Of a DNA stretch of 26,823 nucleotides, positions 9,595 through 25,660 are shown piece by piece; the stretch's first letter is position 1; every line of letters begins with the position of its first letter. The notes beneath the pieces were generated by a model, which saw only the letters and a program-made list of their open reading frames with translations, was not told the origin of the DNA and made no database searches. This stretch comes from a virus, in IMG/VR virus record IMGVR_UViG_3300012931_000068, positions 1-26,823 of that record. One strand, given 5' to 3'. Both the position numbers and the translations under genes were made by a program.

Positions 9595-10047
9595 CTAGGT
9601 TGGGACTACGACTGTAATTGGAATGATGGCAACGAGCTGATCGCCCAGATTGCCCTCGAAAATTTCTACCGCGCCATCAATATAGCAATGCGATACGACT
9701 CCACCGAGCGTCACAGCATTGTTCCCGACATCGTCAATTGCCATCGCGGCTTCGATTGCGTCCATCAACGGATTAAACAATTGTGATGGGTTGACGTTCG
9801 GGTCATTCACAGCGCCCGTGTGCACATATAGGTACAGGTCGAGCGACAATGTCCATTTGGCAGGAAGTCCTCGCGGTTTAGAGACAGTCTCTCGACGCTG
9901 TAGTTGTAGCAGGGCTGGCTGGTCTTCTGCCTCGACCTTTTCCCAATCCTGCAATTTTCTTGTGGCCAGTTTGAATGCTGGCGAGCCTCCAATGGTCAGA
10001 TTCGACCAGAAGGCAAAGATCGCGCTGTAAATGTTTTCGCGGGTCAT
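9595..10047 (-). CDS. Tail terminator protein (gpU-like)
   Basis: A 150-residue protein between the HK97 gp10-like gene and the tube gene, the standard site of the tail terminator. The N-terminal helix MTRENIYSAIFAFW, the pattern RKLQDWEKVEAEDQPALLQL, the beta strand WTLSLDLYLYVHTGA and the helix FNPLMDAIEAAMA match the alpha/beta layout of gpU-type proteins. The family caps the tail tube at the length set by the tape measure and docks the tail on the connector. The start overlaps the gp10-like gene by ATGA, and a 13-bp gap holding the tube ribosome-binding site follows the stop. Confidence 0.78.
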   Translation of the reverse strand: MTRENIYSAIFAFWSNLTIGGSPAFKLATRKLQDWEKVEAEDQPALLQLQRRETVSKPRGLPAKWTLSLDLYLYVHTGAVNDPNVNPSQLFNPLMDAIEAAMAIDDVGNNAVTLGGVVSHCYIDGAVEIFEGNLGDQLVAIIPITVVVPT

Positions 10048-11829: not shown

Positions 11830-13350
11830 TTAGCCCGCAGCGATGTTGGTGATGATACCAATCGAAGGTGGGAAGAAGTGCTGAAGCACCCCGTCTTCAT
11901 AGATACCATACTGATACTTGCGGGTCACCAGCGGCCACTCGATCTGGTAGTAATCACGGCGCATGCGCATTTGCATGACGTTCGTGACGTTCGAGAGTGG
12001 GTAGGGCAGGCGGTTCGTGGTGAACAGCATCGTGCCAGCAGGCATGTTCGGGTGCAGGCGGATCTTCAACTCCTGTGCGCCATCCATGCCGAACTTGTTC
12101 AGGTAGGTGCGCACCATGATGCCGCCACCGACCATCCCTTGGTCCGCATTAAACACAAAGCGCTGAGCAGCATTCGCCGAACCGGCCAGAATCTTCTTGC
12201 CAATATCGTTCATTTGCTGCGAATTCACCCACAACGTGTCTGGACTGAGGCGGTAATTGTCCCAGAATGACTTCAATGCAGTGTCAATCTCCACGATACC
12301 GCCAGCGCCATCACTGGTCAACGGCGTGCCGGTGCCTGCGGTGCCGGTTGCCATCGTTGCTTGATAGCTGTTCAGCGTAGAGCTGGACGCGATGGTGAGC
12401 AGACCGTCGAATGCCAGGCTATTGGTTGAGTTGTTGGTCGAAGTCAATGCTTGGTAGTTCGCCACGCCGCCGCCAGATGCGGTGCCTGTCGCATTGGCAG
12501 TGATCAGCACGCTGTTGATCGTAGTGATCGCACCCAGCGTGAGGTTGCCAGAGTTTGCACCCCAGAACCATGCATAACCAACTGCGCCAGCGACAGGTGC
12601 CACGGTCGCAGAAATAGTAGTTGTGGTACCTGTGTTGGAGTTGATGATGTTGGCTTGCGTTGCAGGCAGTGCAGTGCCGCCGCTGATTGTGTCAGTGGAA
12701 GCGTCTGCATTCGTGCGGACAAATGACTGCAAAATACCAGTTGTTAGCGAGGCGTTAAGGTAGCCCTCGAAGGTCAACGCAACAACGCCGACGCCATAAC
12801 CAACGTTTCCAGTCAGTGTTCCGCCAGTGTTAGCAGAGGTCAGGGTAGGCGTTGGCGTGTTGGCAACGGACAGGCTGTTGTTGCCGCCAAGGATGATCTT
12901 TTCTTCCGAGATCATCATGGCGCGCAACAACCCTTCAACAGCCAGCGCCTTCACATCCTGGAAGTTCTCGGCGGCATAGTCTGCTTCAAACGTCACAGAA
13001 TCTTCCAGGCCGAGGCCTTTATACGCTGCCGTATAATCAGCGGTAGTAGTTGTGATGACTCCAGAACGGTTGCCACCAGACACGTAGGGCGAGCCTGTGC
13101 GCGCGGTGTTCACGCCAGTGACTGCACGCCATGCCGCTTGGATACCGCCCTTGCCAGACACACGAGGGATCTCGTTGCGCAGCGGGGTAATTACTGGATA
13201 AAGCTGCTTGGCCGGTGCCTCCAAGTCATAGGCTGTGATCCCGCTGACGGCGGATGCCGACTGCGTCCACGCTTTGCGCAATTCATCACTCGGATTGGCT
13301 TGCGCAGCCTTGAGCAGAGCAAGAGTCTCTGCAACGGAAGTATTTCCCAT
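11830..13350 (-). CDS. Major capsid protein, HK97 fold, with an Ig/FN3-like insertion
   Basis: A 506-residue protein with a strong ribosome-binding site (AAGGAG, 7-base spacing). Conserved HK97-fold features include the N-arm and E-loop region (ITPLRNEIPRVSGKGGIQAA, 54-73; TGSPYVSGGNRSG, 85-97), the helix ENFQDVKALAVEGLLRAMMI (128-147) with SEEKIILGG, and the C-terminal blocks ALKSFWDNYRLSPDTLWVNS and RMRRDYYQIEWPLVTRKYQY. Residues about 165-325 are Thr/Ser/Gly/Ala-rich and contain SATVAPVAGAVGYAWFWGAN and TINSVLITANA. That pattern fits a fibronectin- or immunoglobulin-like domain inserted between the spine helix and the rest of the P-domain, likely displayed on the capsid surface. It directly follows the protease-scaffold gene and precedes a terminator. 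Confidence 0.93.
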   Translation of the reverse strand: MGNTSVAETLALLKAAQANPSDELRKAWTQSASAVSGITAYDLEAPAKQLYPVITPLRNEIPRVSGKGGIQAAWRAVTGVNTARTGSPYVSGGNRSGVITTTTADYTAAYKGLGLEDSVTFEADYAAENFQDVKALAVEGLLRAMMISEEKIILGGNNSLSVANTPTPTLTSANTGGTLTGNVGYGVGVVALTFEGYLNASLTTGILQSFVRTNADASTDTISGGTALPATQANIINSNTGTTTTISATVAPVAGAVGYAWFWGANSGNLTLGAITTINSVLITANATGTASGGGVANYQALTSTNNSTNSLAFDGLLTIASSSTLNSYQATMATGTAGTGTPLTSDGAGGIVEIDTALKSFWDNYRLSPDTLWVNSQQMNDIGKKILAGSANAAQRFVFNADQGMVGGGIMVRTYLNKFGMDGAQELKIRLHPNMPAGTMLFTTNRLPYPLSNVTNVMQMRMRRDYYQIEWPLVTRKYQYGIYEDGVLQHFFPPSIGIITNIAAG

Positions 13351-13402: not shown

Positions 13403-15019
13403 CTAGCCGCGATAAACCATCGGCTGTCCCCCTGTTGCGAATTGCTGCTTGATCAGTGAAGCGGCAGGATGCACCGCCCCATGAGCGTCTTTTACCAAGT
13501 CCGTTTCTGTGGGCTGTGCACTGCTGAATCCGCCATCGTCGTTTGCCTTGCTCACTGCACGCAAGGAGACTTTTGGAGCACGAGGCTCGGCCTCTAACTT
13601 CTTGATTTGCTCCTGTGCATCGAACAACGACTTCTGCAAAGGCTCGATGGCAGCGGCAACCATTTTTGCTAGCACACCATCTTCGGCCTTGTGCAAATCG
13701 CCAACATCGGCCTTCGCGGCAGGCTGACAATCTGCGCCCAAGTCAACGGAGGCTTTGTGGATTCCCTCGACAAGCGCCTTGTCGCCCGCGCCGTGCCGCG
13801 CGCCGTACTTGACAAGTGTCAGCAACGGGTGCTCGCCTTCATACTTGGCTAGTGCGCCACAATGCTCTGCCATCTGCATGACGTTCTGCGGCATTTCTTC
13901 GTCACCACCCGCCTCGGAAACTTCCTCGTCAATCATTTGCTTGAGAACGCCCGCGCACATTTGGATGCACGCGCCCAACGCTTGCGGCACGGGGGAGTCG
14001 TCGCCTTCACGGTAGGACTCATATGCTGCAGAATTCATCAAATTCTGCATCGCGCCGATGATCTGTGCGAATTGCGCACACTCATACATTCCCTTACGCA
14101 AGCCAGACACAAGAACCTTCATCACCTTGACGGTTTCGGCTTTGCTCGCTTCGTCGTCGCCAACCTTGAACCTCTCCTTTGCCGCTGCAATCTTGCTGTC
14201 AATCGTCTTTTGGTCCTCCGCACTGTACTTGCCCCTGTTCTTGTCCATGCCGAAATAGGATGCTGCCGCACGCACGTGCGCTTCAGTGTCAAGTGGGTAT
14301 TTCTTGTTCTTTGTATCGGCGAATTCCACATCGCCATACTCCTTCTTGCCAGCTTCCGCGCTGGTATCATCACGCGCTGCGATCTTCACCATCTCGATGA
14401 CTTCTGCCATGGTCAAGCCTTTGTCATTCATGAGCTTGCCGAAAGCAATGATTTCCTCAGGGGTGCCGGTAACGTCCACGGCACCGCCCTCCTTCTCCAA
14501 GTCCAAAGCAGGTTTGAATTCCACATCCGCTGTTGAGCCGTCTGCCTTTTGCACTTGGAAGAACTTTGCTGTCGGAATGCATGGCCTGTCAACGAGGCTG
14601 ATTTCACTTGGAATAGCGACATAGCGCGTGTACTCCTTGTCCGCCACCTTTTCGACTGACTTCTCGCCATAACTTCCGCCGATGCTGAATCCGGTGTACA
14701 CACCTTCAAGAACTTTTTTCCATTCGTTGTCATCAACGACTTTGGCGCACACATTGATCGTGCGCGCCGAGTCGTCAAACTGAATATCCTTCAGCACGCC
14801 AGCTGCGACCTTGCCATGCATTGCACGCAAGTTGCCGAGGCTCTTGCCGTCAGTGTCCTTCGACAAGTCTTCACTCCATTTGACGAAGTGTGGTTTGCTG
14901 CCGTCATAATTCAGCATCTCGCCAGACTTGTCCGGAGTCTCATCCGCCGCGCGGCCAAAGACAAGGCGCTTTTCCTCGTCCACTTTTTGAATCTGTGCAA
15001 ATAATTTCATACTCGTCAT
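13403..15019 (-). CDS. Prohead protease (XkdF/S78-like) fused to a DUF6582-like and scaffold-like region
   Basis: A 538-residue protein starting at the ATG at 15019. AAGGAG lies 7 bases upstream and the ATG overlaps the Rz stop by ATGA. Residues 8-150 resemble the XkdF-type serine protease: KVDEEKRLVFGRA, His68 in LRAMHGKVAAG and Ser112 in GVYTGFSIGG, with EISLVDRPCIPTAKF (139-153) closing the domain. Residues about 227-286 (YGDVEFADTKNKKYPLDTEA...KERF) match the small domain I know as DUF6582, often found beside phage proteases. The C-terminal 200 residues are helical and end with a coiled coil (IEPLQKSLFDAQEQIKKLEA), consistent with a scaffold cleaved off during head maturation. It lies directly upstream of the capsid gene. 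Confidence 0.85.
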   Translation of the reverse strand: MTSMKLFAQIQKVDEEKRLVFGRAADETPDKSGEMLNYDGSKPHFVKWSEDLSKDTDGKSLGNLRAMHGKVAAGVLKDIQFDDSARTINVCAKVVDDNEWKKVLEGVYTGFSIGGSYGEKSVEKVADKEYTRYVAIPSEISLVDRPCIPTAKFFQVQKADGSTADVEFKPALDLEKEGGAVDVTGTPEEIIAFGKLMNDKGLTMAEVIEMVKIAARDDTSAEAGKKEYGDVEFADTKNKKYPLDTEAHVRAAASYFGMDKNRGKYSAEDQKTIDSKIAAAKERFKVGDDEASKAETVKVMKVLVSGLRKGMYECAQFAQIIGAMQNLMNSAAYESYREGDDSPVPQALGACIQMCAGVLKQMIDEEVSEAGGDEEMPQNVMQMAEHCGALAKYEGEHPLLTLVKYGARHGAGDKALVEGIHKASVDLGADCQPAAKADVGDLHKAEDGVLAKMVAAAIEPLQKSLFDAQEQIKKLEAEPRAPKVSLRAVSKANDDGGFSSAQPTETDLVKDAHGAVHPAASLIKQQFATGGQPMVYRG

Positions 15020-15510
15020 GGTTGTGCTCCTTGTGAAAGTTGATTTACTATAGACCAGCAAGTGGCATTCGCTGCCGCTTGAATTACTCGGCAGGCCTCG
15101 ATGTCGGTATCGGCTTGATATTGGAGATCGTCCAGTCGTTGCTTAAATCTGTCCAGAGCTTGTTGGTTTCGCTCTGATAGAAGCCTGGCGCTCTCAGTTG
15201 ATACCGCGACTCCGCTGGCGGCTGTGGTTTCGCCACCACCACTTTCGGCGCAGGGCAAGAACACCCGGACAGCAGGGCGAGAATGAATAGCATTAACGAT
15301 ACCAATATCTTTTTCATGTTGATTCTCCAAGTCGTAGATTTTGGTTTGTGAAAATTGAACATACTCCCCGGTTGCTGTTGCCGCAGCAAGATCGGATTTA
15401 GCCATCTCCAGTTGCAGCGGAATCACCTTCCAGTGACGTTCGATGGTCGCCCCAAGAGCGATCAACATGGCAGCCACAACCAGGATGAGTAAAACGCGTG
15501 TATACATCAT
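15016..15510 (-). CDS. Rz: Rz-like i-spanin
   Basis: A 164-residue protein starting at the ATG at 15510 (a second ATG follows at once). AAGGGG lies 6 bases upstream, and the start overlaps the upstream 30-codon frame by ATGA. The longer frame from 15558 is rejected on that basis. Residues 5-21 (RVLLILVVAAMLIALGA) form an N-terminal membrane anchor, and the rest is periplasmic. A helical coiled-coil segment (LLSERNQQALDRFKQRLDDL) is typical of Rz. Rz bridges to an outer-membrane lipoprotein and fuses the two membranes in the last step of lysis. The partner Rz1 is encoded entirely within this gene in the +1 frame. Confidence 0.85.
   Translation of the reverse strand: MMYTRVLLILVVAAMLIALGATIERHWKVIPLQLEMAKSDLAAATATGEYVQFSQTKIYDLENQHEKDIGIVNAIHSRPAVRVFLPCAESGGGETTAASGVAVSTESARLLSERNQQALDRFKQRLDDLQYQADTDIEACRVIQAAANATCWSIVNQLSQGAQP
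15084..15317 (-). CDS. Rz1: Rz1-like o-spanin lipoprotein nested in Rz
   Basis: A 77-residue frame from the ATG at 15317, shifted +1 relative to Rz and wholly inside it. TTGGAG lies 7 bases upstream of the ATG. The N-terminus MKKILVSLMLFILALLSGCS is a lipoprotein signal with lipobox LSGC and acylated Cys19. The mature protein begins CSCPAPKVVVAKPQPPAESR, Pro-rich as in lambda Rz1, and has no +2 Asp, so outer-membrane sorting is expected. It should bind the periplasmic end of Rz. Upstream in-frame codons without a ribosome-binding site were not used. Confidence 0.88.
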   Translation of the reverse strand: MKKILVSLMLFILALLSGCSCPAPKVVVAKPQPPAESRYQLRAPGFYQSETNKLWTDLSNDWTISNIKPIPTSRPAE

Positions 15511-15599
15511 TTGCCACCCCTTCCAACAGAATACCCGAACACAAAAAATACCGCGCATAAACCGAAGGCCACAACGATGGAAATTATCTCATGAGTCAT
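15507..15599 (-). CDS. Micro-protein with one membrane segment (30 aa)
   Basis: A 30-codon frame beginning MTHEIISIVVAFGLCAVFFV and ending in a short Gly/Arg/Lys tail. GGAG lies 6 bases before the ATG at 15599. The start overlaps the 23-codon frame by ATGA, and its stop overlaps the Rz start the same way. It consists of one hydrophobic helix with a positively charged C-terminus. Its placement between a putative holin and Rz suggests a lysis role, such as an extra pinholin or a regulator, or a pure coupling frame. This is inference from position only. Confidence 0.6.
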   Translation of the reverse strand: MTHEIISIVVAFGLCAVFFVFGYSVGRGGK

Positions 15600-15667
15600 G
15601 CATAGCTCCAAAGGACAAACAGCACAGCGATTACGGCAATCGCAAAAAGGGCGGCATTATGGGTCAT
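15596..15667 (-). CDS. Micro-protein with one membrane segment (23 aa)
   Basis: A 23-codon frame beginning MTHNAALFAIAVIAVLFVLW, starting at the ATG at 15667. It overlaps the putative holin stop by ATGA, and its own stop overlaps the next micro-frame by ATGA. It is almost entirely a hydrophobic helix. A GGTGA stretch 7 bases before the ATG could be a weak ribosome-binding site, but re-initiation from the overlapping gene is more likely. It shares the MTH start and helix length with its neighbour, so the two may be related. Function unknown; a lysis role is possible. Confidence 0.5.
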   Translation of the reverse strand: MTHNAALFAIAVIAVLFVLWSYA

Positions 15668-16047
15668 TGCTTGTTCACCGAACTGTTGAACCTGGAATCG
15701 CAGGTATAGCCAGTCACCCCGGACATAATCATCGCACCCATTGCCGGTTTGTAAAACTGGAAATTCTTCGCTGCCTCGACAATGTATTCCGCCGAAACTT
15801 GGTCGAACAGCCCCGCCCAATTCATCGCGGCCATAGAAGAGAAAAACATTGTCAGCGTGATCCCGGTCCCTGCCGGATTGTCTGCAATGAGGTAATCAAG
15901 GAATGTCCCTTGCGCCTGTCCTTTACGCTTTGCTACGCGCCAATGCGCATACATGCCAAGGAATCCAGGCAACACGATGATGATGCCTGCTATAATGTCT
16001 ATCGCATCGCCAGCGGGTATTGCGGTAACTGCACTTACTGCATCCAT
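15664..16047 (-). CDS. Putative holin / phage membrane protein
   Basis: A 127-residue membrane protein with hydrophobic stretches at about 16-36 (AIDIIAGIIIVLPGFLGMYA), about 74-92 (ITLTMFFSSMAAMNWAGLF) and a weaker one at about 107-118. A basic loop, HWRVAKRKGQAQGTFLDYL, lies between the first two, and the C-terminus reads GVTGYTCDSRFNSS. AAAGGA lies upstream of the ATG at 16047. It lies directly after the endolysin and before the spanins, which favours a holin. Similar small membrane proteins with a G-[FY]-T-x-D-S end occur in other proteobacterial phages. A holin family cannot be assigned with confidence, and the 118-residue protein upstream is another candidate. Confidence 0.6.
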   Translation of the reverse strand: MDAVSAVTAIPAGDAIDIIAGIIIVLPGFLGMYAHWRVAKRKGQAQGTFLDYLIADNPAGTGITLTMFFSSMAAMNWAGLFDQVSAEYIVEAAKNFQFYKPAMGAMIMSGVTGYTCDSRFNSSVNKQ

Positions 16048-16071
16048 GATTTTCCTTTCAATGATTGAAAA

Positions 16072-16524
16072 TTATTGCGCCCGAATAGTTCCGGCGTTCA
16101 GCAATTGGAAATGCGCAGACTCAAGATCGCACCTCCAATCACCGCTCCATTCAAGACCAAAACGTTTCCCGATTGCGCCAAGAATGGCGTAGGACGGGTC
16201 AGCCCCATCGTCCACAACACGACCGTGCCGCAGTATCAGCAGGTCAACAGCACGCGATGCGGGGCGTCCTGCCGAATCAACGTGGTTGTGCTCGCTGGTG
16301 CCAGGCTTCTTGTATGTCTTCACGGCAGCTTTGTCCACAATATTCCCGGATTCGTCACGTCCGCATTGCCATACCGCAAACTGTCCAGCGGTGTTTCGGT
16401 AAGTACAAGCGACAATGGCCACATCACTTGCGGGCAATTCTGCTTTCGACGCTGCTAGAACTTCTATCGTTTTATCACGCATCTCGGGCGTGCAATCGTT
16501 TAAGTCTCTGCTAGTTTGTGGCAT
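16072..16524 (-). CDS. Endolysin, M15-type L-Ala-D-Glu / D-Ala carboxypeptidase-like
   Basis: A 150-residue protein with the layout of small M15 peptidase endolysins (peptidase_M15_4 type). The zinc-binding region is TSEHNHVDSAGRPASRAVDL (76-95), with His79 or His81 and Asp94 as ligands. The C-terminal LEWSGDWRCDLESAHFQL (124-141) supplies the catalytic Glu125, the GDW element and the third ligand His138. GGAG lies 8 bases before the ATG. No signal peptide or membrane segment is present, so it needs a holin to reach the cell wall. It cuts peptide cross-links of peptidoglycan. The spacing within the first metal motif is longer than in typical SxHxxGxAxD proteins. Confidence 0.85.
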   Translation of the reverse strand: MPQTSRDLNDCTPEMRDKTIEVLAASKAELPASDVAIVACTYRNTAGQFAVWQCGRDESGNIVDKAAVKTYKKPGTSEHNHVDSAGRPASRAVDLLILRHGRVVDDGADPSYAILGAIGKRFGLEWSGDWRCDLESAHFQLLNAGTIRAQ

Positions 16525-16539
16525 GACTATTTCTCCAGT

Positions 16540-16896
16540 TTATTTAAGAATAAGTCCAACAAGTTCTTTGCCGTGCATCACGAGCGTTACGATTGCTGCA
16601 ATCGCAATGAGTTCTCCAATCTTTCCAAAAAACTTACCCTTCATCGTCCCAACAATATTGCGGGTTGCCCGGTGCTCATCATGATCAACTCTGTGCCCGT
16701 AAAAGTCAGCCTTACCATCAACATGAGGCATTGATTCTGTCACACTGGTTAAGAGTTTCAGCTCGCATCTGATAGAGGCCATTCCGGCCTCTTCATTCAC
16801 CATGTGGGTACGTAGGGCAGAATCCAACGCCGCTTGCCGATCGTCAATCCTGCGCAGGTATTCGAACAAAGAAGGAGTCAAATTGGCCTGTTCCAT
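16540..16896 (-). CDS. Small coiled-coil protein with C-terminal membrane anchor (XhlA-like, possible lysis accessory)
   Basis: A 118-residue protein with a helical N-terminus (FEYLRRIDDRQAALDSALRT), a polar middle containing HVDGKADFYGHRVDHDEHRA, and one hydrophobic segment at the C-terminus (IGELIAIAAIVTLVMHGKEL). This layout resembles XhlA-type lysis accessory proteins. Its place directly before the endolysin supports a membrane role in lysis. The ATG immediately follows the TAA of the upstream gene, and no clear ribosome-binding site is seen. Function is inferred from layout and position only. Confidence 0.5.
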   Translation of the reverse strand: MEQANLTPSLFEYLRRIDDRQAALDSALRTHMVNEEAGMASIRCELKLLTSVTESMPHVDGKADFYGHRVDHDEHRATRNIVGTMKGKFFGKIGELIAIAAIVTLVMHGKELVGLILK

Positions 16897-17166
16897 TTAA
16901 CAAGCCCCAGTTGCCGGGCATATTTTCCCGATGATGTTAACATGTGGTGTCGTGCTATATTTTGCCATAACGGCTAGCGCACACTGCTGCTGGACGAGCC
17001 CTGCGTCTGTTTGGGTCTGGAAAATTATAGCTCCTGTTGAATCAACGCTCGAAACTGATGGGCAAACTGTGCGAACATCTAAGTCTACTGCTAAAATTTG
17101 ATCCACCGATATTTGTGCCGCATTAGCAGTGGCAGAAAACAGTAATCCTATAATAATTTTTTTCAT
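16897..17166 (-). CDS. Small exported Cys-containing protein
   Basis: An 89-residue protein starting at the ATG at 17166, which overlaps the upstream fibre-like stop by ATGA. GGGGAG lies 5 bases away. MKKIIIGLLFSATANAA is a Sec signal peptide with likely cleavage after ANA. The mature part contains four cysteines (TVCPSV, QQQCALAV, GKICPATGAC), suitable for two disulfide bonds in the periplasm. The function is unknown. It is the last of four consecutive signal-peptide genes and precedes the lysis block. Confidence 0.75.
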   Translation of the reverse strand: MKKIIIGLLFSATANAAQISVDQILAVDLDVRTVCPSVSSVDSTGAIIFQTQTDAGLVQQQCALAVMAKYSTTPHVNIIGKICPATGAC

Positions 17167-18965
17167 CAAAACTCCCCATATCCATTCAGTAAAAAGGCGC
17201 CAGAAGTTCCTGCCAATACTGCTCCGTTAAACGTTGCTGTGCCGCTAGTCACATATTCTTCTGCTGAAATAAAATGGTATCCGCTTCCTGGGTAGAAATA
17301 ATAATTCGCATCAACGGATGATGAAGTGGTCCCAACCTTAAACGTATCCGTTGTGGGGGTTGATGTAGAATCTAAGCCGAGAGAAATATGCACGGCGGCA
17401 GTGATCGAATTCGCAAATGAACTTTTATTTGCGGCGTAGAAATAAGACGACGTTGACTCGATAACAAAGTTCAATTGGTTTGCAGTATTCGCGTTTGCCT
17501 GTCTCCACACGGCTGTTGAATATGTCCATGATGCCGCGGTCTCTTCCCGCTTCATTGGCTTTTTTACTTTATTAAAGTGATTTGCTAAAAATCTGTTCGC
17601 AAGAGAATCTTCTGTCTGTCCGCTCACGCCAGTGGTTTTGAATACGCCAACATACAAGCAAGTTGCGTCAGCATTTTTAGTATCGAATCCGTTTTGTGTT
17701 CCGCGAGTCGGCTGCGTAGTTAACCCTGCCCACGCCACAAGTTGCAGGTTTGGCGTACCCGCGTTATAGCAGGCATATGCGTCATACATTGTGTTTGTAG
17801 TAGCTGGAACCGCAACACTTAGTTGAGAATTCACAAACTGTTGCCATGCCGAACCATTCCAAAGCGTCATTGTGCCTGCGGTGAAATAAACGGTAGTTGC
17901 GGCAGTAACATCTGCCGTTGTGATCGGGACCCCGCTGGTTAGTGTCAGGCGACCCGTTGGGACTTGTGGAGCAAGCAATGTGAGCTGGTTAGAGCCATTC
18001 TTCCCAACGGAAACATTGTCATATCCTACGTTTAGCGTATTGCCGGAATATGACAAAGCATTCCCTGCTGCTGGGTTTGTAACTGCCCCGCCCTGCGTAT
18101 CAATCCACGTAGCCCCGGCAGCGTTGTACCAGTACACATGCCGATAATCAATTCCGCCCACGCCATCTACAAATACTTGCATCCCCGATGTGGGGGCGGT
18201 TTGTGTGTAGGTGTAAGCGCCTGGGGTTCCTCCGGTGACTTCAAAAATATATTTGTCTTTCCCGGTGAACGAACCCACAGCGCTTGCCGTGTTGTTGAAT
18301 GTGACACCTACTCTGCTCCCGGCAGCAATTGTCCCAATGTCCGTCCATGCAGACGGACTTGCCGTTGCGCATTCGTATAAATGTCCAGCCGTCCACACGC
18401 CAGAACTCGCAGCAGCTATATAACTGTCCTCAAGTAAGCAGGTCGCTGGCGGTGCAGTTTGTGAATCGTCCAATACGTACGGAACGGCTATCGGAGACAC
18501 CCAAGTCACCCCGGCGGATATTTGCCCAACTGTGGCCGCATCTGTTGATGCGAGTCCGGGCGATACGTTGGTAATGAGTTGAGAGTTCATGTCCACGCCA
18601 GACATGAATGTTTTAACGCCTGATATGGCCTGAGCGGAAGCGGTAAGTGCGCCCGGATGTGTTGCATCAGCGGGTTGTAACGTCAACACTTGCCCAGATA
18701 GAGAAGCGCCGTCTGCATTCGGTGTAGCACCTACCGCGCTGAGAGCGACATCGCCAGTGTTCGCGCCTGTGCTTGTGCCGGAGCCTGACGGTACGCCAGC
18801 CAGACTAGACACAGTAGCGCCGCTAATATTCCCTCCGACAAAATTGCATGACAGGCACGTATCGAGAATCTTTAGCTCGCCAGCCCATGCGCGTATCGGT
18901 TCATACGTTAAAGACAATAGAGCAATGCACAGCGATAATACAATTGATGGGATTATTTTTTTCAT
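17166..18965 (-). CDS. Tail fibre-like protein with a signal peptide
   Basis: A 599-residue protein. The ATG at 18965 is chosen because GGAG lies 6 bases upstream; the ATG four codons earlier has none. Residues 1-28 (MKKIIPSIVLSLCIALLSLT...AWA) form a Sec signal peptide with an A-x-A site. Residues about 75-140 contain a phage fibre pattern (SAQAISGVKTFMSGVDMNSQ, then LITNVSPGLASTDAATVGQI), which marks repeats in tail fibre and collar proteins. The rest is Gly/Thr/Ala-rich and beta-rich. Ordinary tail fibres lack signal peptides, so this protein is odd: it is either exported to the periplasm or cell surface during infection, or matured on a membrane. It lies among head genes rather than with the tail genes. 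Confidence 0.78.
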   Translation of the reverse strand: MKKIIPSIVLSLCIALLSLTYEPIRAWAGELKILDTCLSCNFVGGNISGATVSSLAGVPSGSGTSTGANTGDVALSAVGATPNADGASLSGQVLTLQPADATHPGALTASAQAISGVKTFMSGVDMNSQLITNVSPGLASTDAATVGQISAGVTWVSPIAVPYVLDDSQTAPPATCLLEDSYIAAASSGVWTAGHLYECATASPSAWTDIGTIAAGSRVGVTFNNTASAVGSFTGKDKYIFEVTGGTPGAYTYTQTAPTSGMQVFVDGVGGIDYRHVYWYNAAGATWIDTQGGAVTNPAAGNALSYSGNTLNVGYDNVSVGKNGSNQLTLLAPQVPTGRLTLTSGVPITTADVTAATTVYFTAGTMTLWNGSAWQQFVNSQLSVAVPATTNTMYDAYACYNAGTPNLQLVAWAGLTTQPTRGTQNGFDTKNADATCLYVGVFKTTGVSGQTEDSLANRFLANHFNKVKKPMKREETAASWTYSTAVWRQANANTANQLNFVIESTSSYFYAANKSSFANSITAAVHISLGLDSTSTPTTDTFKVGTTSSSVDANYYFYPGSGYHFISAEEYVTSGTATFNGAVLAGTSGAFLLNGYGEF

Positions 18966-18980
18966 GTGTTGCTCCATAAA

Positions 18981-20009
18981 TTATTCGTTCGGCTCGTACC
19001 ATCCCTCATACGACAAAGTAGCCGAGCCGCCAGACGTTTGCGGTACTGCGTTCCCTTTTAGGATGCTTAATGATGGAAATGCTAGAGGTAGTCGTAACGT
19101 GCGTGTGACTGTGCTGTTCTCTAGTCTGAACGGTTCGTATACGGTAAAAAACAATCCGGGGGTAACTGTACCTTCCGATGTGATAGTCGCCAATAACCTG
19201 ACCAAAATAGCAGTGTTGTCCGTTGCCGTTGCAGTAAGCCCGGTCATGTAAAATGTTTGTCCGGCAGGGATCATCCTCGCAGAATTGAGTGCCATGTTGC
19301 TGCCAGCAACCATTGCGTTATACACAACGCTCGGATCGCCTATTTTATGAATAGTAACAACCCCCTCGGTGGATCCTGTAGCACCGACAGTTTCAGAATG
19401 GATGTTCTCCACAAATCTAATATTGGTAGCGATTGTGTCAACCGGAGAAACTCCGCTCATATTGACAATCTCGCTCGCAGGTACGCCGGAGGCATTTAGA
19501 TAATGTACATCAACCTGCCTGCATCCCGACCCGAGCAGGGTATCATTTGCGGATGTAGATACGAGCGTCATTTGTTCGCCCGTCGTTTGGTCAGGAATCG
19601 GCATCACGGCAGATGCGCCTTGCCAAATATCATTCCCAGTAGCGCCGGTTGAAATTGATGTCCTATCACCAAACCCGCGATACGGTATATGGTTTGCAAC
19701 ATTGCCGTGCGCTATCGCATAGGTGTAATCTAACGTTCGCATTGATCCATCAGCACCTTCCTCGTCATACCATCCGAGATGTTCCGAATTGTAGAACCGC
19801 ATTCTTGACGGAACTTCGGCTACCCCGCTCGCGTTTGCGAGGAATTTAGAATTGAGCGATGCTACACTTGAAGCGGCGGAAGCGGCAGATGCGTTACCGG
19901 TAGCTTGCAGTGCGGACGTCGCTCCCCCCAGCACAGACACTGTGCCATAATCCGCCGCGCCAACGGCCAGCGAAAACAGACAACCAAGCAGTACGAGCAG
20001 ACGGTTCAT
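18981..20009 (-). CDS. Virion-like beta protein with a signal peptide
   Basis: A 342-residue protein. The start is the ATG at 20009, which overlaps the upstream stop by ATGA; the longer frame from 20075 is rejected. MNRLLVLLGCLFSLAVGA is a Sec signal peptide. The mature part contains DIWQGASAVMPIPDQTTGEQ, then MTLVSTSANDTLLGSGCRQV and EGVVTIHKIGDPSVVYNAMV. Sequences of this type are familiar from phage structural proteins, but those are not usually exported. An Ala/Ser-rich helix (TSALQATGNASAASAASSVA) follows the signal peptide and could trimerise. It is probably a partner of the fibre-like protein encoded next. Function is uncertain. Confidence 0.7.
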   Translation of the reverse strand: MNRLLVLLGCLFSLAVGAADYGTVSVLGGATSALQATGNASAASAASSVASLNSKFLANASGVAEVPSRMRFYNSEHLGWYDEEGADGSMRTLDYTYAIAHGNVANHIPYRGFGDRTSISTGATGNDIWQGASAVMPIPDQTTGEQMTLVSTSANDTLLGSGCRQVDVHYLNASGVPASEIVNMSGVSPVDTIATNIRFVENIHSETVGATGSTEGVVTIHKIGDPSVVYNAMVAGSNMALNSARMIPAGQTFYMTGLTATATDNTAILVRLLATITSEGTVTPGLFFTVYEPFRLENSTVTRTLRLPLAFPSLSILKGNAVPQTSGGSATLSYEGWYEPNE

Positions 20010-20335
20010 TGCAGCTGTGCACACGTGTAAGTGACCGCGCCAGACGACGAGTCGTAAGTGCTCGTCGTCGTCCAAGTATTCACACCGTCTGTTTCGGAGA
20101 TGGTCGTAGTTGTTACCGTCCCAGAAACTGCTGGCGTGCTGGTCGTTGCCAGATTGCGCGGCTTCCCGTTCCCGTCACAATCACGATCGTATGTCATTGC
20201 GGCAGTTGGCGGGTTGCCGATTTGCTCAGACTGCGAGCGTTGAACTTTTCCGTTCGTCGCTGCCATGACAACTGCGACCGACGGTAAGAACAACAGCGCA
20301 GGCACCAATGCTGCGATTAAATATTTAACTTTCAT
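20006..20335 (-). CDS. Small exported Thr-rich protein
   Basis: A 109-residue protein starting at the ATG at 20335 (overlapping the MuF stop by ATGA); the GTG one codon earlier is not needed. MKVKYLIAALVPALLFLPSV...MAA is a signal peptide with likely cleavage near residue 25. The mature part is rich in Thr and Ser (TSTPAVSGTVTTTTISETDG) and has two cysteines, one in YDRDCDGNGKPR and one near the end (TYTCAQLQ). No family was recognised. It opens the run of four exported proteins inserted between the portal/MuF block and the lysis genes. Confidence 0.7.
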   Translation of the reverse strand: MKVKYLIAALVPALLFLPSVAVVMAATNGKVQRSQSEQIGNPPTAAMTYDRDCDGNGKPRNLATTSTPAVSGTVTTTTISETDGVNTWTTTSTYDSSSGAVTYTCAQLQ

Positions 20336-21189
20336 CACTCTTCCCCTTTCAATACAGGAACAACATCACAAATGCAATTCGGGTGGTATGGCGGTTGCGC
20401 ATAACCACTCACAAAATCATCGTCAATGCCAACTGTGCCAGCAGCAGCACATTCATCACACACATCATCCTTGTCATGCAAGTCGCCAAGAATCGAACGC
20501 TTACCAATGACTACTCCTGTTTCTCGCCATCCCTGCACGTTTCCGCTTACATGAGCAGAGGCCAGCTCAGTGCGCGCAATCACGTCCGCGCGAGACTCGC
20601 TGAACGCAAATGAAGCTCGAATTGAACGCGACAATTCGTCAGTGCTCATGCCGCTCTCGACAGCGCGCGTTATCTCACCACGCAGTGCTTCCTTAGTCGT
20701 GCTTGTCAAATTCGTGACCAGTTCAGCAGCGTGCTCTTTTGCATAGGTGCGTGCCATTTCATCCAGGTGATTAGTCATGTCCGGCGTTGCGTCCATTCCA
20801 ACCTGCCCTATGCCGACAATCCCGGCAGCATTGAATGCATCAATGAGGTCTGGCGTGATGGCGTCAGTTACATCCACGCTCAGGCCTGTTAAATTCAGCT
20901 CACTCAATATTGCTTGGATGACGGCTTCTTGCGAATCCTGCTTCAACAGACGCAGCCCATATAGCCGTGCAACCTTTTTGGCAATGGTCTGTCCGCTGCT
21001 TTGCGTAACCTTGCTTGCTTTTTTAGAAACGTTGCCAACATGCTTTGCAGTGTACATCGCAACGCCTGTCGCGTTTGAACGCGCCTTAAGCAATGCGGGA
21101 AGGTTATGCACTCTTGCCCTTGCCGGGGACGAATTGGCCAGCACCTTGTCGGTGTCGCGTGGGCGTAGCAGCGCGGCGATCGCGTTCAT
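20335..21189 (-). CDS. MuF-like minor head protein
   Basis: A 284-residue protein. The C-terminal part (about 185-277) is a Mu gpF / SPP1 gp7-type domain, with the helix SRSIRASFAFSESRADVIAR, then TELASAHVSGNVQGWRETGV (207-226), then the metal-site-like VCDECAAAG (Cys244, Cys247) and PPYHPNCICDVVPV (His269, Cys272, Cys274). The N-terminal 180 residues are helical. These proteins join the portal inside the procapsid and are ejected with, or guide, the DNA. It overlaps the portal stop by ATGA. No fused toxin domain is present, unlike the longer MuF polymorphic proteins. Confidence 0.9.
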   Translation of the reverse strand: MNAIAALLRPRDTDKVLANSSPARARVHNLPALLKARSNATGVAMYTAKHVGNVSKKASKVTQSSGQTIAKKVARLYGLRLLKQDSQEAVIQAILSELNLTGLSVDVTDAITPDLIDAFNAAGIVGIGQVGMDATPDMTNHLDEMARTYAKEHAAELVTNLTSTTKEALRGEITRAVESGMSTDELSRSIRASFAFSESRADVIARTELASAHVSGNVQGWRETGVVIGKRSILGDLHDKDDVCDECAAAGTVGIDDDFVSGYAQPPYHPNCICDVVPVLKGEE

Positions 21190-22523
21190 GCTGTTGCCTC
21201 TTCTTGCTGCTGTACAGACTTTGACGCAGGAAGTGTCATACCTTGTGGCGCTTCCTTACGTGCGTCCATCCCCAGCCTTTCACGAACTTCATCGGCGGAA
21301 TACACGTTCGTGTCCGTGATATAGATTTTGTCAATCTGCGCTTGCTTCAGAGGATCAACTGTGTTCTCTATCTTCCACTTGAATCGAACTTCCGGCACGC
21401 CGAGCTTCGTGGAAATCAAGAAATTCATCTTGTTTTGAATCCACCGCATAAGCGGAAACAGACCTTCTTCTTTTGCGGAATCAGCGGCCTGTTCTGCTGT
21501 GGCACGGCTTTGCTGTTTGACAAACGATGTCGGAGGGATGGAGAAGGCAAAGCAAACGATGCGCGCCAACCATTCATCGTATTCGTCCTTGAGCACGTCC
21601 TTCTTTGGGAAGATGATGTCCTTCAGACTTGGAACGAATCGCATCTTGCGGCGTGCGGCAGTGTTGCCTTCGTTCATGCTATCCCATAATGTTTGGAATT
21701 CAACAATTTGCTTCGGCGTCCAATTCTCCGGTACTTGTGCAATTGCCTCTGGCACATTGCCAGACGTGTAGAATTCCAGCTGGCTCAATTGACGACGTAG
21801 CGCGATGTTCACGGTCATGATGATTTGTTCAACAGGACTGAAGCCATATAAGCGGTTCGTGCGTGGATTGCGCATCATGTAAACGAGGTCATCTGTCGTC
21901 AGATCATTTGCCATGATGCCATGAATAATTTGCTGGTATGCCGGATCAGGCGGGAAAGGGGTACGGCCTTGCGCCGTTATCTTGCGTGTGATAGTCGCGG
22001 CGTCAATCAACTCAAGTGCCATCACTTTTCCGCCGCGATTGTATGCGGGGTAAACCGCAACAGCGTCAATAACCAGCAAGTCCTCGACAAAGATACTCAG
22101 CCAGTCGTCCCATGTGTGCTCACGATCTGGCATTTGCAGGAAATCGGACACGTATTTGATCTGTGCCGCGAACTGCTCGGAATTCTTCTCCTCGTCTGTC
22201 GGCACAATTTCCCAATCGAACGATTTGATCTGGTCTTTGCGTGTTTCGATAACAACGCGCAATAGATCATAGCCATCTGCCAACTGGCGCATCGTCGAGA
22301 ACGGATTGGCCTCGGTGTTGCGAGGCTGGATGCGCAGGTTGACGCCAACAGGAAAGTCAAATGCACGGCCTTCGGATTTCTCCTGTGCGACAGGAGCAAG
22401 CGGCTGCGATGGACCGAAGAAATTTTCCGGGCCAACGCCTGTGATGGCGTAGCGAATGCCTTGGCTCACCCGTTGGATGAAGCCAGGATCAATGTTGCTG
22501 CCCATTGTCTCGCGGGAGGCCAT
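21186..22523 (-). CDS. Portal protein
   Basis: A 445-residue portal protein, the dodecameric ring at the packaging vertex. Features include the N-terminal STMRQLADGYDLLRVVIETR (77-96) and QIKSFDWEIVP, the central LMRWIQNKMNFLISTKLGV, the block PRTNRLYGFSPVEQIIMTVN, and the C-terminal DKIYITDTNVYSADEVRERL with GMDARKEAPQG. It lies between the packaging genes and the MuF gene, as in most siphophages. The start is the ATG at 22523, three bases after the upstream stop, with a poor ribosome-binding site. The first 16 bp of the start region are repeated at 22835-22850 (separate entry). Confidence 0.92.
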   Translation of the reverse strand: MASRETMGSNIDPGFIQRVSQGIRYAITGVGPENFFGPSQPLAPVAQEKSEGRAFDFPVGVNLRIQPRNTEANPFSTMRQLADGYDLLRVVIETRKDQIKSFDWEIVPTDEEKNSEQFAAQIKYVSDFLQMPDREHTWDDWLSIFVEDLLVIDAVAVYPAYNRGGKVMALELIDAATITRKITAQGRTPFPPDPAYQQIIHGIMANDLTTDDLVYMMRNPRTNRLYGFSPVEQIIMTVNIALRRQLSQLEFYTSGNVPEAIAQVPENWTPKQIVEFQTLWDSMNEGNTAARRKMRFVPSLKDIIFPKKDVLKDEYDEWLARIVCFAFSIPPTSFVKQQSRATAEQAADSAKEEGLFPLMRWIQNKMNFLISTKLGVPEVRFKWKIENTVDPLKQAQIDKIYITDTNVYSADEVRERLGMDARKEAPQGMTLPASKSVQQQEEATA

Positions 22524-22526: not shown

Positions 22527-22781
22527 TTATGCTTTCCGTGCATTCATAGCCGAGACATAATTGGCATGCGCAATATCTATCTCAGACTGAGTGGCTTTTG
22601 GATACATCTTTCGATGTTGATCTTCAAACTTTTGCTTATTGGTGTAATCTGTTTTCTGCTTTGTCCCACTTCCACCACTGTACTGGTTTCCATGAAACTC
22701 ATGCCCTGCGAAGTCGCCCTTAAACAACGGCTCGCCGTTTTGTTGGGCGGCCTTAATTAAATCAACGACTGTTGCGTTCAT
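22527..22781 (-). CDS. Small HGNQY-tagged protein, helical C-terminus (84 aa)
   Basis: An 84-residue protein. AAGGAG lies 5 bases before the ATG at 22781, inside the relic frame that ends there by ATGA. The N-terminus carries GEPLFKGDFAGHEFHGNQY (16-34), followed by SGGSG. The C-terminal half is different from its paralogues: charged and helical (YTNKQKFEDQHRKMYPKATQ, then EIDIAHANYVSAMNARKA). The paralogues are at 22850-23185 and 24675-25019. The HGNQY tag occurs in phage proteins of several architectures in my memory, but no function is established to my knowledge. Location between terminase and portal suggests a packaging or internal head protein. Confidence 0.8.
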   Translation of the reverse strand: MNATVVDLIKAAQQNGEPLFKGDFAGHEFHGNQYSGGSGTKQKTDYTNKQKFEDQHRKMYPKATQSEIDIAHANYVSAMNARKA

Positions 22782-22849
22782 ACCACCTCCTTCATCTCTT
22801 GTTGCTGACGCGTGTAGTCTACCAATCTCATTTGCTCGCGGGAGGCCAT
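22778..22849 (-). pseudogene. Chimeric relic: portal N-terminus joined to large-terminase C-terminus (23 codons)
   Basis: A 23-codon frame starts with ATG at 22849, right after the stop of the 111-residue gene. Its first five codons give MASRE, the portal start, and the rest gives MRLVDYTRQQQEMKE, nearly the large-terminase end MGLVDYMRQQQEMKE. DNA identity is 16/16 bp with the portal start and 37/38 bp with the terminase end. It ends in ATGA overlapping the 84-residue gene and carries that gene's AAGGAG. It looks like a recombination scar kept because it supplies a ribosome-binding site. Whether the peptide itself works is unknown. Confidence 0.8.
22787..22824. repeat. 38-bp direct repeat, relic copy of the large-terminase end
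   Basis: It matches 23194-23231 with one mismatch in 38 bp. The second copy is the last coding part of the large terminase gene. The copy here sits in the relic frame and carries the AAGGAG used by the 84-residue gene. Weaker similarity extends 7 bp further. Confidence 0.9.
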
Positions 22850-23185
22850 TTATTTCACGTGCACTGCTTTAGTTGAATGCAAGTAGCCGATGGGCTTACC
22901 TGGCCTTGTAGTTATAAGCATGTTCCCCTCATGCCCAATCACTTCTTCATTCGGGGCGCCTTGGTAGTTAGCTCGCACTATCGTTCCTTTTGGAAACTTC
23001 TTTTCTGAGGCGGCAGTCTCTTTGCGCGCACGCTCCGCTCCGCTTGCATAATTTTTTGCATTGCTCCCTCCGCCTGTTGAGTACTGATTCCCATGGAACT
23101 CGTGCCCAGGAGCATCGCCCTTCTCAAACGTCACCGCAGGTTCGCCACCGACGTATCTCACACACTTTTTCAGATCAACACTCAT
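22850..23185 (-). CDS. Small HGNQY-tagged protein, SH3-like C-terminus (111 aa)
   Basis: A 111-residue protein overlapping the large-terminase stop by ATGA, with AAGGAG 8 bases upstream inside the terminase gene. The N-terminus carries EKGDAPGHEFHGNQYSTGGG (21-40), followed by a Lys/Arg/Ala-rich linker. The C-terminal part, KGTIVRANYQGAPNEEVIG then MLITTRPGKPIGYLHSTKAV, alternates short strands and could fold as a small SH3-like barrel. Paralogues flank it on both sides. No family function is known. Position implies a packaging- or head-associated role. The barrel assignment is inference from pattern. Confidence 0.8.
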   Translation of the reverse strand: MSVDLKKCVRYVGGEPAVTFEKGDAPGHEFHGNQYSTGGGSNAKNYASGAERARKETAASEKKFPKGTIVRANYQGAPNEEVIGHEGNMLITTRPGKPIGYLHSTKAVHVK

Positions 23186-24678
23186 GCCGCCTTCTCCTTC
23201 ATCTCTTGTTGCTGACGCATGTAGTCTACCAGCCCCATCGTCTTACCACGAACACGACGCCAGTTGCAATACTGCGTCATGCTGTCAACTTCGTCATCGT
23301 CACCACCATCCGCACCCGTGAACTTGGAACAGGTGGACACGAAGTCTTCGATGTTTGGTTCGACGCTTGAGTCGGGCAGGAACACATTCCCGGCCTCACA
23401 AGCAGGTTGCATCGCGAATGCTCTTGCCGCCTTGCCACCTTCTGGATTTATTGGCAGCACTCCGGCAATCTCATCCGTCAGTGTTTCGATAACTGCGGAG
23501 CCGTTGGCTTTGTCCTCAACCAGCACCGCCGTCACGCCGACATTCGGATGCTTCGCGGACACAGCTGCCACGAAGTTGCGCAATGCAGTGACCGTTGCGC
23601 CGAATCCCATGCGCTCCTTAATGCGGCCAGGAAGCAGATAGTCGTTCGCGCCCTTGTTCCCCCATGCCTGAATTGCAACATGGTCAGAAGTCGTCAGATT
23701 CTTGAACGTACAATCAACACTCACGACGATCTCATCAAGTTGCGGCAGCTCTTTGTAGAACTTCCATTGATCACGGATGAAGATGATGCCGCTGCGCGGT
23801 TCCGGATTTTGTTGCAGTTGCGCTTGCTTGTGATAACTGCCGAGCGTCGTCTCCAAATCCTTTGCGATTTGTTCGGGAACGCGTGCGGGATGAATCAGTT
23901 CACCCTCGACTTTGCGCGGATCTGTAAAGCCGAGCGATGTCGGCTTCTGAATGAATTTCGGATCATAGCGGAAAGGCAACGCCAGATGTTCCCAGCCATC
24001 CTCATGCTCAAGCAAATAGCCTGTCAGATCGTTCACATTGAGTCGCTGGTGCACGACTATCACTGCGCCAGTTGATGGGTCATTCGCGCGGGTTGCCATC
24101 GTACCCTTCCACCACTCTACGGAGCCTGCAAGCGCAAGAGGGCTGTCTGCGTCCTTGGCCGAAACAGGGTCGTCCACGATGCGTATGTCGCCGCCGAAAC
24201 CTGTGCCTGCGCCATCAGTGGATGTGACTGTGCGCATACCACGCTTGTCGTTTTCATATCGCGACTTTACGTTCTGGTCACCCGTCATCTTGAACTTGTG
24301 TCCGAACGCGGTTTGATAGCCAGACGATTCAATAACGCGCCGAGTATCAACGGCATCACGTGTCGCGATGTCCTTAGCATAGGAGGCTGTCAAGAATTGG
24401 CGCGAGGGATTATCAATCCAATCCCATGCTGGGAATGCGTGACTGACTAAAGATGATTTCAACATGCGGAATGGCATGTTGATGAGCAATTTCTGAATCT
24501 GGCCACGCTTGACAGCTGTCAGATGCTCGCATATCGCACCGATGTGCCAGTTGTCTTTGAATTGTGTTGCCGGCTGTAGGACCGGCCATGCAAAACGCCA
24601 GAAGAAGAAATGCAAATCGCGCCGTGCCATTTCGGCTTCGAGGTCGGATAGCATTGGCAGGCGCATAGGAGCGTTCAC
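23182..24678 (-). CDS. Terminase large subunit
   Basis: A 498-residue packaging motor. The ATPase part includes the Walker A-like NMPFRMLKS (67-75), the SYAKDIATRDAVDTRRVIES segment (99-118), the coupling region RYENDKRGMRTVTSTDGAGT (140-159) and Walker B IRIVDDP (165-171). The nuclease part shows Asp322 in VVSVDCTF, Glu388 in VLVEDKANG and the acidic GGDDDEVDSM (458-467). The Walker A segment lacks the usual Gly before Lys-Ser. Relatives I know read PGYMKS, so a degenerate loop is normal for this branch, but MPFRMLKS departs further. It overlaps the 114- and 111-residue genes by ATGA. Its last 50 or so bases are duplicated at 22787-22824. Confidence 0.95.
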   Translation of the reverse strand: MNAPMRLPMLSDLEAEMARRDLHFFFWRFAWPVLQPATQFKDNWHIGAICEHLTAVKRGQIQKLLINMPFRMLKSSLVSHAFPAWDWIDNPSRQFLTASYAKDIATRDAVDTRRVIESSGYQTAFGHKFKMTGDQNVKSRYENDKRGMRTVTSTDGAGTGFGGDIRIVDDPVSAKDADSPLALAGSVEWWKGTMATRANDPSTGAVIVVHQRLNVNDLTGYLLEHEDGWEHLALPFRYDPKFIQKPTSLGFTDPRKVEGELIHPARVPEQIAKDLETTLGSYHKQAQLQQNPEPRSGIIFIRDQWKFYKELPQLDEIVVSVDCTFKNLTTSDHVAIQAWGNKGANDYLLPGRIKERMGFGATVTALRNFVAAVSAKHPNVGVTAVLVEDKANGSAVIETLTDEIAGVLPINPEGGKAARAFAMQPACEAGNVFLPDSSVEPNIEDFVSTCSKFTGADGGDDDEVDSMTQYCNWRRVRGKTMGLVDYMRQQQEMKEKAA

Positions 24679-25019
24679 TTACTTGGCGCCCTTATATGTT
24701 CGCGAGCGACGCGCTCAGTAGGTGCTAGTTTCATACCGGTGTCCTGAGCCTCAACCAAAACTCTTGGCATGTCGCCACGAGCGTCACGTGCTTCGAGTAC
24801 TTTGTATTTTTGGACGCCGTCACCCTCTAAATGAACTATATGCCCAGCTTGGAGTGGTTCTTTGCCATTCCAGGCTTTGCCACTAGCGCTTGTAGTTTCT
24901 TTGGCGCCTCCACTTATATATTGATTTCCGTGGAATTCGCGACCGGCGACATCGCCTTTAAACAATGGTTCGCCTTTTGTTGGCGCGACCTTGATCAGGC
25001 CAACGATTGATTCGCTCAT
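24675..25019 (-). CDS. Small HGNQY-tagged protein, SH3-like C-terminus (114 aa)
   Basis: A 114-residue protein between the small and large terminase genes, overlapping both by ATGA. The N-terminus carries GEPLFKGDVAGREFHGNQY (16-34), then ISGGAKE. The first 34 residues align with the 84-residue paralogue (both with [GD]LIK then GEPLFKGD). The C-terminal part, LQAGHIVHLEGDGVQKYKVL, then MPRVLVEAQDTGMKLAPTER, suggests a small beta barrel of the SH3/KOW kind. It is the only paralogue located between the two terminase genes. The function is unknown; see the finding on these proteins. Confidence 0.8.
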   Translation of the reverse strand: MSESIVGLIKVAPTKGEPLFKGDVAGREFHGNQYISGGAKETTSASGKAWNGKEPLQAGHIVHLEGDGVQKYKVLEARDARGDMPRVLVEAQDTGMKLAPTERVAREHIRAPSK

Positions 25020-25660
25020 GATTTATTTTCCAGTTTCCGCTGCAATGTGAGATAGGCTTGAAGCTCAGCGTCAGACAATGCACTCAGGTCTGCGACTGGG
25101 CTCAGAGGAGCTTCAGGATCGCCAGCCAGGATTTGGCGGTCGCCGAATTTGTGCGGCTTAAGATGAGCCATTAGCCACTTGCGTGTTTCGACACGGAGCC
25201 TGGAGCGTTGCACATGCTCGCCGTCTAAAACGACTGAGACTTTACCTGTGCGCTCATTCTCACGTTCGGTCCAGTCATTTGTACCATCATCTGCTATATC
25301 GAGCAGCTTGTCGCCCATGCATTCGGCTTGCTGGAACTTGGCTCGCGTGTATATGTCAGCGAGAGCTTTGTCGGTGTCGAGCCACTCATAGAACAATGAA
25401 TAATTGGGGAAGTCTGGGTGATCTTTCAAGATGCTAACGACGCCACGCTCAGTGGATGCGATTATCTCGCATACAGCTTTTACAATTTCCAACTTTTTTT
25501 CTTCTGTCATGTTTGCAAATAATGAACGACGACGAGCAAGCTCAGAAGTGAATTTATCGGAAGCAGGCTTTTTTGCAGAGGACTTCATAGCAGGCTTTTT
25601 TGCAGGAAACTTCGCGACAAGCTTTGCCGTAGGCTTCTTCGATGTGAGAGCTTTCGCCAT
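25016..25660 (-). CDS. Terminase small subunit with a basic N-terminal tail
   Basis: A 214-residue protein at the head of the late operon, just upstream of the large terminase. GGAG lies 8 bases before the ATG at 25660. Residues 38-180 resemble DNA-binding small terminases: helical sequence IVKAVCEIIASTERGVVSIL, a helix-turn-helix-like FPNYSLFYEWLDTDKALADI, then YTRAKFQQAECMGDKLLDIA and RLRVETRKWLMAHLKPHKFG. The subunit recognises phage DNA and loads the motor. Residues 1-36 are an extra Lys/Ala/Pro-rich tail with repeated KKP units (SKKPTAK, AKKPAMK, AKKPASDK), like histone H1 tails, probably contacting DNA non-specifically. Confidence 0.88.
   Translation of the reverse strand: MAKALTSKKPTAKLVAKFPAKKPAMKSSAKKPASDKFTSELARRRSLFANMTEEKKLEIVKAVCEIIASTERGVVSILKDHPDFPNYSLFYEWLDTDKALADIYTRAKFQQAECMGDKLLDIADDGTNDWTERENERTGKVSVVLDGEHVQRSRLRVETRKWLMAHLKPHKFGDRQILAGDPEAPLSPVADLSALSDAELQAYLTLQRKLENKS

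Follow-up and report, generated by a model that had tools for sequence, protein, structure and literature searches.

A two-part peptide tag on unrelated small proteins at the terminase and portal gene junctions of a virus fragment, proposed as a head-cargo signal

The stretch of DNA analysed here (the window) is a 26.8-kb virus fragment in which the genes of head formation lie on the minus strand, from the small and large subunits of the terminase (TerS and TerL) through the portal to a MuF minor head protein, an XkdF-like protease and a presumed major capsid protein (MCP). Three small genes are lodged in the first junctions of this series, one between TerS and TerL and two between TerL and the portal, and the identity of their neighbours, as given in the initial annotation, is confirmed by PHROG and Pfam matches. 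The features considered below are the following.

25016..25660, minus strand: TerS, terminase small subunit (Pfam Sf6_terminase, 2e-26)
24675..25019, minus strand: tagged gene 1, an ORF of 114 aa between TerS and TerL, with no Pfam match
24960..25019, minus strand: leader of gene 1 (MSESIVGLIKVAPTKGEPLF), from the leader alignment
24918..24959, minus strand: core of gene 1, KGDVAGREFHGNQY, from the motif scan of ORFs
23182..24678, minus strand: TerL, terminase large subunit (PHROG 38, 1.4e-78)
22850..23185, minus strand: tagged gene 2, an ORF of 111 aa directly after TerL, absent in the relative L132
23081..23122, minus strand: core of gene 2, KGDAPGHEFHGNQY, from the motif scan of ORFs
22778..22849, minus strand: relic mini-ORF of 23 aa, MASREQMRLVDYTRQQQEMKEVV and stop, which reads as the portal start joined to the TerL end (translation and repeats)
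22527..22781, minus strand: tagged gene 3, an ORF of 84 aa directly before the portal, absent in L132
22722..22781, minus strand: leader of gene 3 (MNATVVDLIKAAQQNGEPLF), from the leader alignment
22680..22721, minus strand: core of gene 3, KGDFAGHEFHGNQY, from the motif scan of ORFs
21186..22523, minus strand: portal protein (PHROG 2662, 4.9e-69)
20335..21189, minus strand: MuF minor head protein, untagged (Pfam Phage_Mu_F, 5.4e-10)
13403..15061, minus strand: XkdF-like protease with DUF6582 and a conserved leader-like C-terminal peptide (PHROG/Pfam and alignment)
11830..13350, minus strand: presumed MCP, from its position after the protease; matched to no family, with an N-terminus that resembles the leader of the relative L107

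Gene 1 overlaps both the TerS stop and the TerL start by 4 bp. All three proteins carry one motif, [FE]KGDxxG[HR]EFHGNQY, at residues ~21–35, the individual copies being FKGDVAGREFHGNQY (114 aa), EKGDAPGHEFHGNQY (111 aa) and FKGDFAGHEFHGNQY (84 aa), and in each a Gly/Ser-rich stretch follows. ORFs and motif scan agree here with the initial annotation on the proteins, the position of the motif and the linker, and correct it on one detail: the residue preceding KGD, given there as F or K, is F, E and F. A scan of all window ORFs found the whole motif in no other. The tags of the 114-aa and 84-aa proteins are 71% identical and their cargo is unrelated (SW score 16). None of the three proteins has a Pfam match in a profile search, and between them they have only two PHROG matches, both weak (E 0.013 and 0.025). 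A search of viral contigs gave no close relative of the 114-aa protein, and the AlphaFold2 models of the 114-aa and 111-aa proteins are of low confidence (mean pLDDT ~46) because relatives are few; the beta-barrel-like and helical C-termini of the initial annotation are therefore putative.

The view that these genes are insertions at head-gene junctions is borne out by a comparison with TerL relatives drawn from viral contigs. In L132, whose TerL is 88% identical to that of the window, the TerS-like ORF runs to 8431 with TerL beginning at 8428, and TerL in turn runs to 9927 with the portal beginning at 9924, so that both junctions are closed by 4-bp overlaps with no tagged gene between. The tagged genes are thus, in the manner of morons, absent at the same junctions of a close and otherwise collinear relative, and the three in the window are therefore inserted accessory genes. 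In other relatives the TerL/portal junction holds one tagged gene (171 aa; L133), two tagged genes (124 and 168 aa; L107), a single 346-aa gene with two tags (L134) or other small genes that are untagged (L136, L139 and L140); since small-gene content varies among relatives in this way, the junction is a site of gene gain.

How the window came to hold two cassettes at this junction may be recorded in the 23-aa relic between genes 2 and 3. The mini-ORF is composed of the portal start (MASRETMG) and the TerL end (GLVDYMRQQQEMKEKAA), and in its DNA 45 nt match the TerL end at 91% identity and 26 nt match the portal start at 88%. From TerL onwards come the 111-aa gene, the relic (portal start/TerL end), the 84-aa gene and lastly the portal. 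Gene order and relic together would most simply reflect unequal exchange between two genomes with different single cassettes at the junction, and the relic reads as a trace of their stacking. As a separate observation, untagged small-gene families of 70–129 aa recur in the TerL/portal junction (L139 1143-1355, L107 4511-4729, L134 5414-5803 and L137 8016-8330).

The initial annotation regarded the N-terminus as a shared, exchangeable module on unrelated C-termini, and the same arrangement is seen in many other contigs. The tag is bipartite, with a phage-specific leader followed by a universal core that is also placed between and after domains. The leader is common to the tagged proteins of one phage and differs between phages, for example FSTDALLYPLTKGD, NPFSSDALLKSLSNYPVAKGD and EIESWVRIAKGD in phages other than that of the window, where it reads LIKxAxxxGEPLFKGD (xxVxLIKxAxxxGEPLFKGD over the first ~20 residues in two of the three proteins). 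On contig 3300032236_001318, leaders of the form [MV][ST]GFTTxELLYPLTKGD occur six times, mostly on differing proteins, and among 26 same-contig pairs of tags that are at least 70% identical, some of which include a truncated tag, only two have related cargo. The tag lies at residues 15–45 in many proteins and also internally in long ones, and tags within one ORF are separated by at least 80 aa (median 213), or about one tag per domain. Up to 8 loose copies of the core occur in one ORF (L078), and in three proteins the core lies at the extreme C-terminus, ending in GHPFYGNQHASGN and the stop (L090 8363-8968; L102 12627-13181 and 13127-13843).

The back-translated pattern G[HR]EFxGNQ was scanned over viral contigs, where at least 119 stretches carry it, many with 2–6 copies, and over 257 Gb of bacterial and archaeal genomes, where 10 stretches carry it and one, from an Armatimonadota bin (L122), reads as a real tag; these counts are lower bounds, and the sample of loci is biased to the one pattern. 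As the strict motif is near-absent from bacterial genomes, the tagged phages look mostly non-integrated. A looser protein motif has 458 matches in 140 fetched loci, ~300 of them distinct, and 0 in shuffled frames. The motif thus recurs widely in phage proteins, as stated in the initial annotation, which gave it no known role; likewise, neither its string nor that of the second motif described below, nor a description of such a repeat, was found in the open-access texts searched.

The 162 distinct contexts give the consensus VxKGDxPGHEFHGNQ[YW]TxGxG. The near-invariance of G, H, F, G, N and Q in these contexts is partly built in by the search pattern; positions that the pattern leaves free (K/L, GD and the Gly-rich tail) are also strongly conserved, and G, H, F, G and N are still strongly conserved in the looser motif. 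The codons of the invariant Gly are GGT (48), GGC (44), GGG (38) and GGA (32), a spread over synonymous codons which implies that selection acts on the protein and not on the DNA. That the motif propagates as DNA, in a recombination element or as a repeat, would be in keeping with the gain and stacking of cassettes through recombination, but is highly improbable given that synonymous sites are randomised and that the duplicated DNA in the window comprises the TerL end and portal start, not the motif.

Among 100 tagged proteins searched with Pfam and PHROG, the head families are MuF (8), portal (5 in Pfam and as many as 10 in PHROG) and DUF2213 or other head maturation proteases (4–8). Since PHROG names overlap for MuF-containing proteins, its counts for these three families depend on one another. 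The same 100 include up to 10 ADP-ribosyltransferases and 5 PI3/4-kinase-like proteins, and further attached families are pentapeptide repeats, GNAT, HipA-like kinase, topoisomerase IB, 2H phosphoesterase, KptA and RelA/SpoT. The same tag is therefore carried by portal, MuF and protease proteins and by effector domains, and the many unrelated families attached to it speak against the possibility, raised at the outset, that the motif is the core of one globular fold with an enzymatic role. Same-strand neighbours include a portal in 10 of 130 cases within 600 bp versus 3 of 130 beyond 3 kb, and head morphogenesis genes in 8 versus 2 of 130; near neighbours also match RNA ligase, methyltransferase (DNA modification) and ParB, and placement beside head genes is not exclusive. 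In MuF proteins the tags lie before or after the MuF domain. A splitting of MuF by tagged inserts, suggested by phmmer pieces, was rejected, as the i-E values of the N-terminal pieces are near or above 1 with one exception (0.035).

Taken together, the three genes are probably accessory cargo genes, and their tag a modular head-cargo signal composed of a leader and a universal junction core. In this account, in which we infer that the proteins are packaged and delivered, that the leader docks them and what the core does, each gene would join a tag of two parts, at the N-terminus, to a small cargo domain unrelated to the others. The leader (~20 residues) would be a phage-specific docking peptide that gains entry to the procapsid via the scaffold/protease or the capsid protein, and the core (GDxxGHxFxGNQ[YW]TxGxG) would be a universal junction, dock to cargo or cargo to cargo, where the dock may be either a leader peptide or a head protein domain (portal, MuF or protease) and the cargo is often an effector. 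The core would most likely serve to separate cargo from dock, as a hinge or by being cut during head maturation, and the cargo would thereby be free to leave with the DNA. Several observations sit less easily with this explanation. The window's own MuF and protease lack the core, the three C-terminal cores separate nothing, and some of the neighbours encode DNA-modification proteins or ParB instead of head proteins. A tblastn search of 50,697 cultured phages with the consensus peptide, the 114-aa protein and a protein of L012 gave no phage with a GHxFxGNQ tag, which is a weak test owing to the short query and the low-complexity filter.

Leaders can be compared with the termini of head proteins. 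A leader type, EIxxW[ILV], opens several untagged MuF proteins (L006, L109 and L118), and N-termini of this type are found in 3 of 25 untagged MuF proteins and 19 of 190 tagged ORFs, versus 3 of 787 other untagged ORFs (Fisher p 5e-4 and 1e-11, values that are optimistic as the pattern was picked after the leaders had been seen). An acidic protein of L121 has the leader-like C-terminus SAFSTESLLYPHISK and stop, and a similar protein of L061 reads on as GGGFTTNELLYPLTKGDVDGHPFHGNQY and a further domain, in the order leader, core, cargo. Leader-like ends are also present in the window's group, at the C-terminus of the protease (SLIKQALNNGGQPLHYRG and stop in L139) and the N-terminus of the MCP (TLALLKAAQANPSDELRKAW). 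The L107 leader aligns with the N-terminus of the window MCP with a score of 53 (0 of 1000 shuffles) and the 84-aa leader with the protease C-termini of L139 and L088 (p 0.002), matches that are short and partly post hoc, from ~40 comparisons with p-values given per comparison. Against the head-cargo explanation, the 111-aa leader has no match to the MCP and at best a weak one to the protease (p 0.02), and most other comparisons of leaders with MCP or protease are weak. The likenesses suggest that leaders may copy a scaffold or capsid contact. In the XkdF-like protease of the window (13403-15061, minus strand) the conserved C-terminal peptide reads HPAASLIKQxxxxGGxPxxYRG. Modules of the form FSxxxRxxLAxxGxAMPDGSxPI are shared by many tagged proteins with the capsid maturation proteases that Gordonia and Microbacterium phages encode.

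An alternative is that the core itself is the targeting signal, a peptide that binds a head component such as portal, MuF or scaffold, with the leader secondary. The core is highly conserved and independent of position, up to the extreme C-terminus, as such a peptide might be, but it is also attached to MuF, portal and protease proteins, which need no extra targeting, as many as 8 loose copies per ORF would be more than targeting requires, and untagged MuF proteins share leaders and not cores; this reading is doubtful.

A second motif, RD[ED]xGR[WF][TA]xGGG, was found in 157 contexts, with N-terminal and repeated internal copies and a Gly-rich tail, and the families attached to it include portal, MuF, XkdF/DUF2213 protease, ADP-ribosyltransferase, topoisomerase IB, Zeta toxin and others. 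It resembles GHxFxGNQ[YW] in its positions, overlapping families, Gly-rich tail and co-occurrence with GHxFxGNQW, and differs in its core residues and its upstream peptide (KYSEDQP-like). Both motifs are used together on seven loci (L020, L069, L079, L093, L177, L179 and L244), and L045 has a MuF protein with an RDEQGQWT tag together with a GHEF-tagged gene. Given their same organisation, overlapping families and co-occurrence, the two cores appear interchangeable. Two interchangeable forms, domain-sized spacing and a Gly-rich stretch downstream would also be compatible with a passive linker or domain boundary, a hinge spread by domain shuffling via recombination at junctions. This is unlikely, as G, H, F, G, N and Q are near-invariant although their codons are free, and as the core is associated with head proteins and effectors.

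A sharper version of the head-cargo explanation takes the core as a proteolytic site, cut by the prohead protease or another phage protease after encapsidation, with the leader as a propeptide. It is possible, though not probable, and is consistent with the location of the core between head domains and cargo and between cargos, about once per domain, as in L143, where a portal domain (74-383), an RDE tag (585) and topoisomerase IB (640-877) follow in succession. P1 head proteins are processed (PMC9024508), and polyvalent proteins are argued, in passages of Iyer et al. 2017 (PMC5512222), to need processing. Against such cutting, two rather different cores on one locus would require dual specificity, and C-terminal cores release nothing. 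In T4, the prohead protease cuts after a conserved Glu. In the ~300 distinct tags, GH is followed by E 150 times, by P 73 times and by A 33 times, so that half of the 300 contexts have P, A, V, S or another residue in place of the Glu of a would-be G-x-E site. A fixed cut at the Glu of GHEF is accordingly disfavoured, while other sites may be cut. The binding peptide, the passive linker and the proteolytic site are all versions of the role of the core within the head-cargo model, and their probabilities therefore overlap with that of the preferred explanation.

The preferred head-cargo explanation has parallels in known systems. Internal proteins of T4 are loaded into the head by a short N-terminal capsid-targeting sequence (CTS) common to very diverse small proteins (PMC3012670), and the window tags are likewise short N-terminal sequences conserved among otherwise unrelated proteins; they differ from the CTS in having a universal core downstream of the leader, which is also found internally and C-terminally and is fused to portal, MuF and protease. 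In P1, a reporter that carries the N-terminal 30 aa of DarB goes to the capsid (PMC9024508), a likeness in that ~30 N-terminal residues bring an effector into the head, although the DarB signal was described for one protein of one phage and the tag here is a dispersed motif. We propose that the tag works like the capsid-targeting sequences of T4 and P1, as a functional likeness rather than as a member of either system.

A polyvalent protein comprises between 2 and 15 domains whose activities are unrelated, and passages of Iyer et al. 2017 (PMC5512222) place such domain sets next to virion genes. Long tagged relatives of the window proteins, with several tags and several domains, similarly bring ART, RelA/SpoT, 2H, kinases, MuF and portal together in a single chain encoded close to virion genes, whereas the window proteins themselves are of 84–114 aa with one short cargo each; the passages of that paper considered here mention neither motif. 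MuF polymorphic toxins of temperate phages (Jamet et al. 2017, PMC5576092) are alike in that MuF proteins bear exchangeable extra domains, but they pair MuF with an exchangeable C-terminal toxin, and in the window the three proteins have no MuF match and the MuF gene is untagged.

More broadly, GHxFxGNQ[YW] and RDExGR[WF] may, tentatively, be two forms of one undescribed, phage-wide address-and-release code that marks most head-packed, injected proteins. The choice of effectors that enter the head and are injected with the DNA is known in few model phages only. A tag on hundreds of otherwise unannotated proteins would allow such proteins to be found by pattern search, would link polyvalent proteins with MuF toxins and portal fusions, and offers a loading signal that can be tested directly; if the code were true, the injected effectors of a phage could be listed from sequence alone.

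Two minor observations concern maturation proteases and their surroundings. The capsid maturation protease of a cultured phage, Microbacterium phage Cece gp70 (L264 5329-9975), contains RDGSGQFA and RDYNGQFK, which look like relatives of RDExGR. In the window, lysis-like genes and two large appendage-like ORFs (364 and 603 aa) at 15016-20075 (minus strand) apparently lie between the MuF and protease genes, which, judged from their translations, is an unusual position for genes of these kinds.
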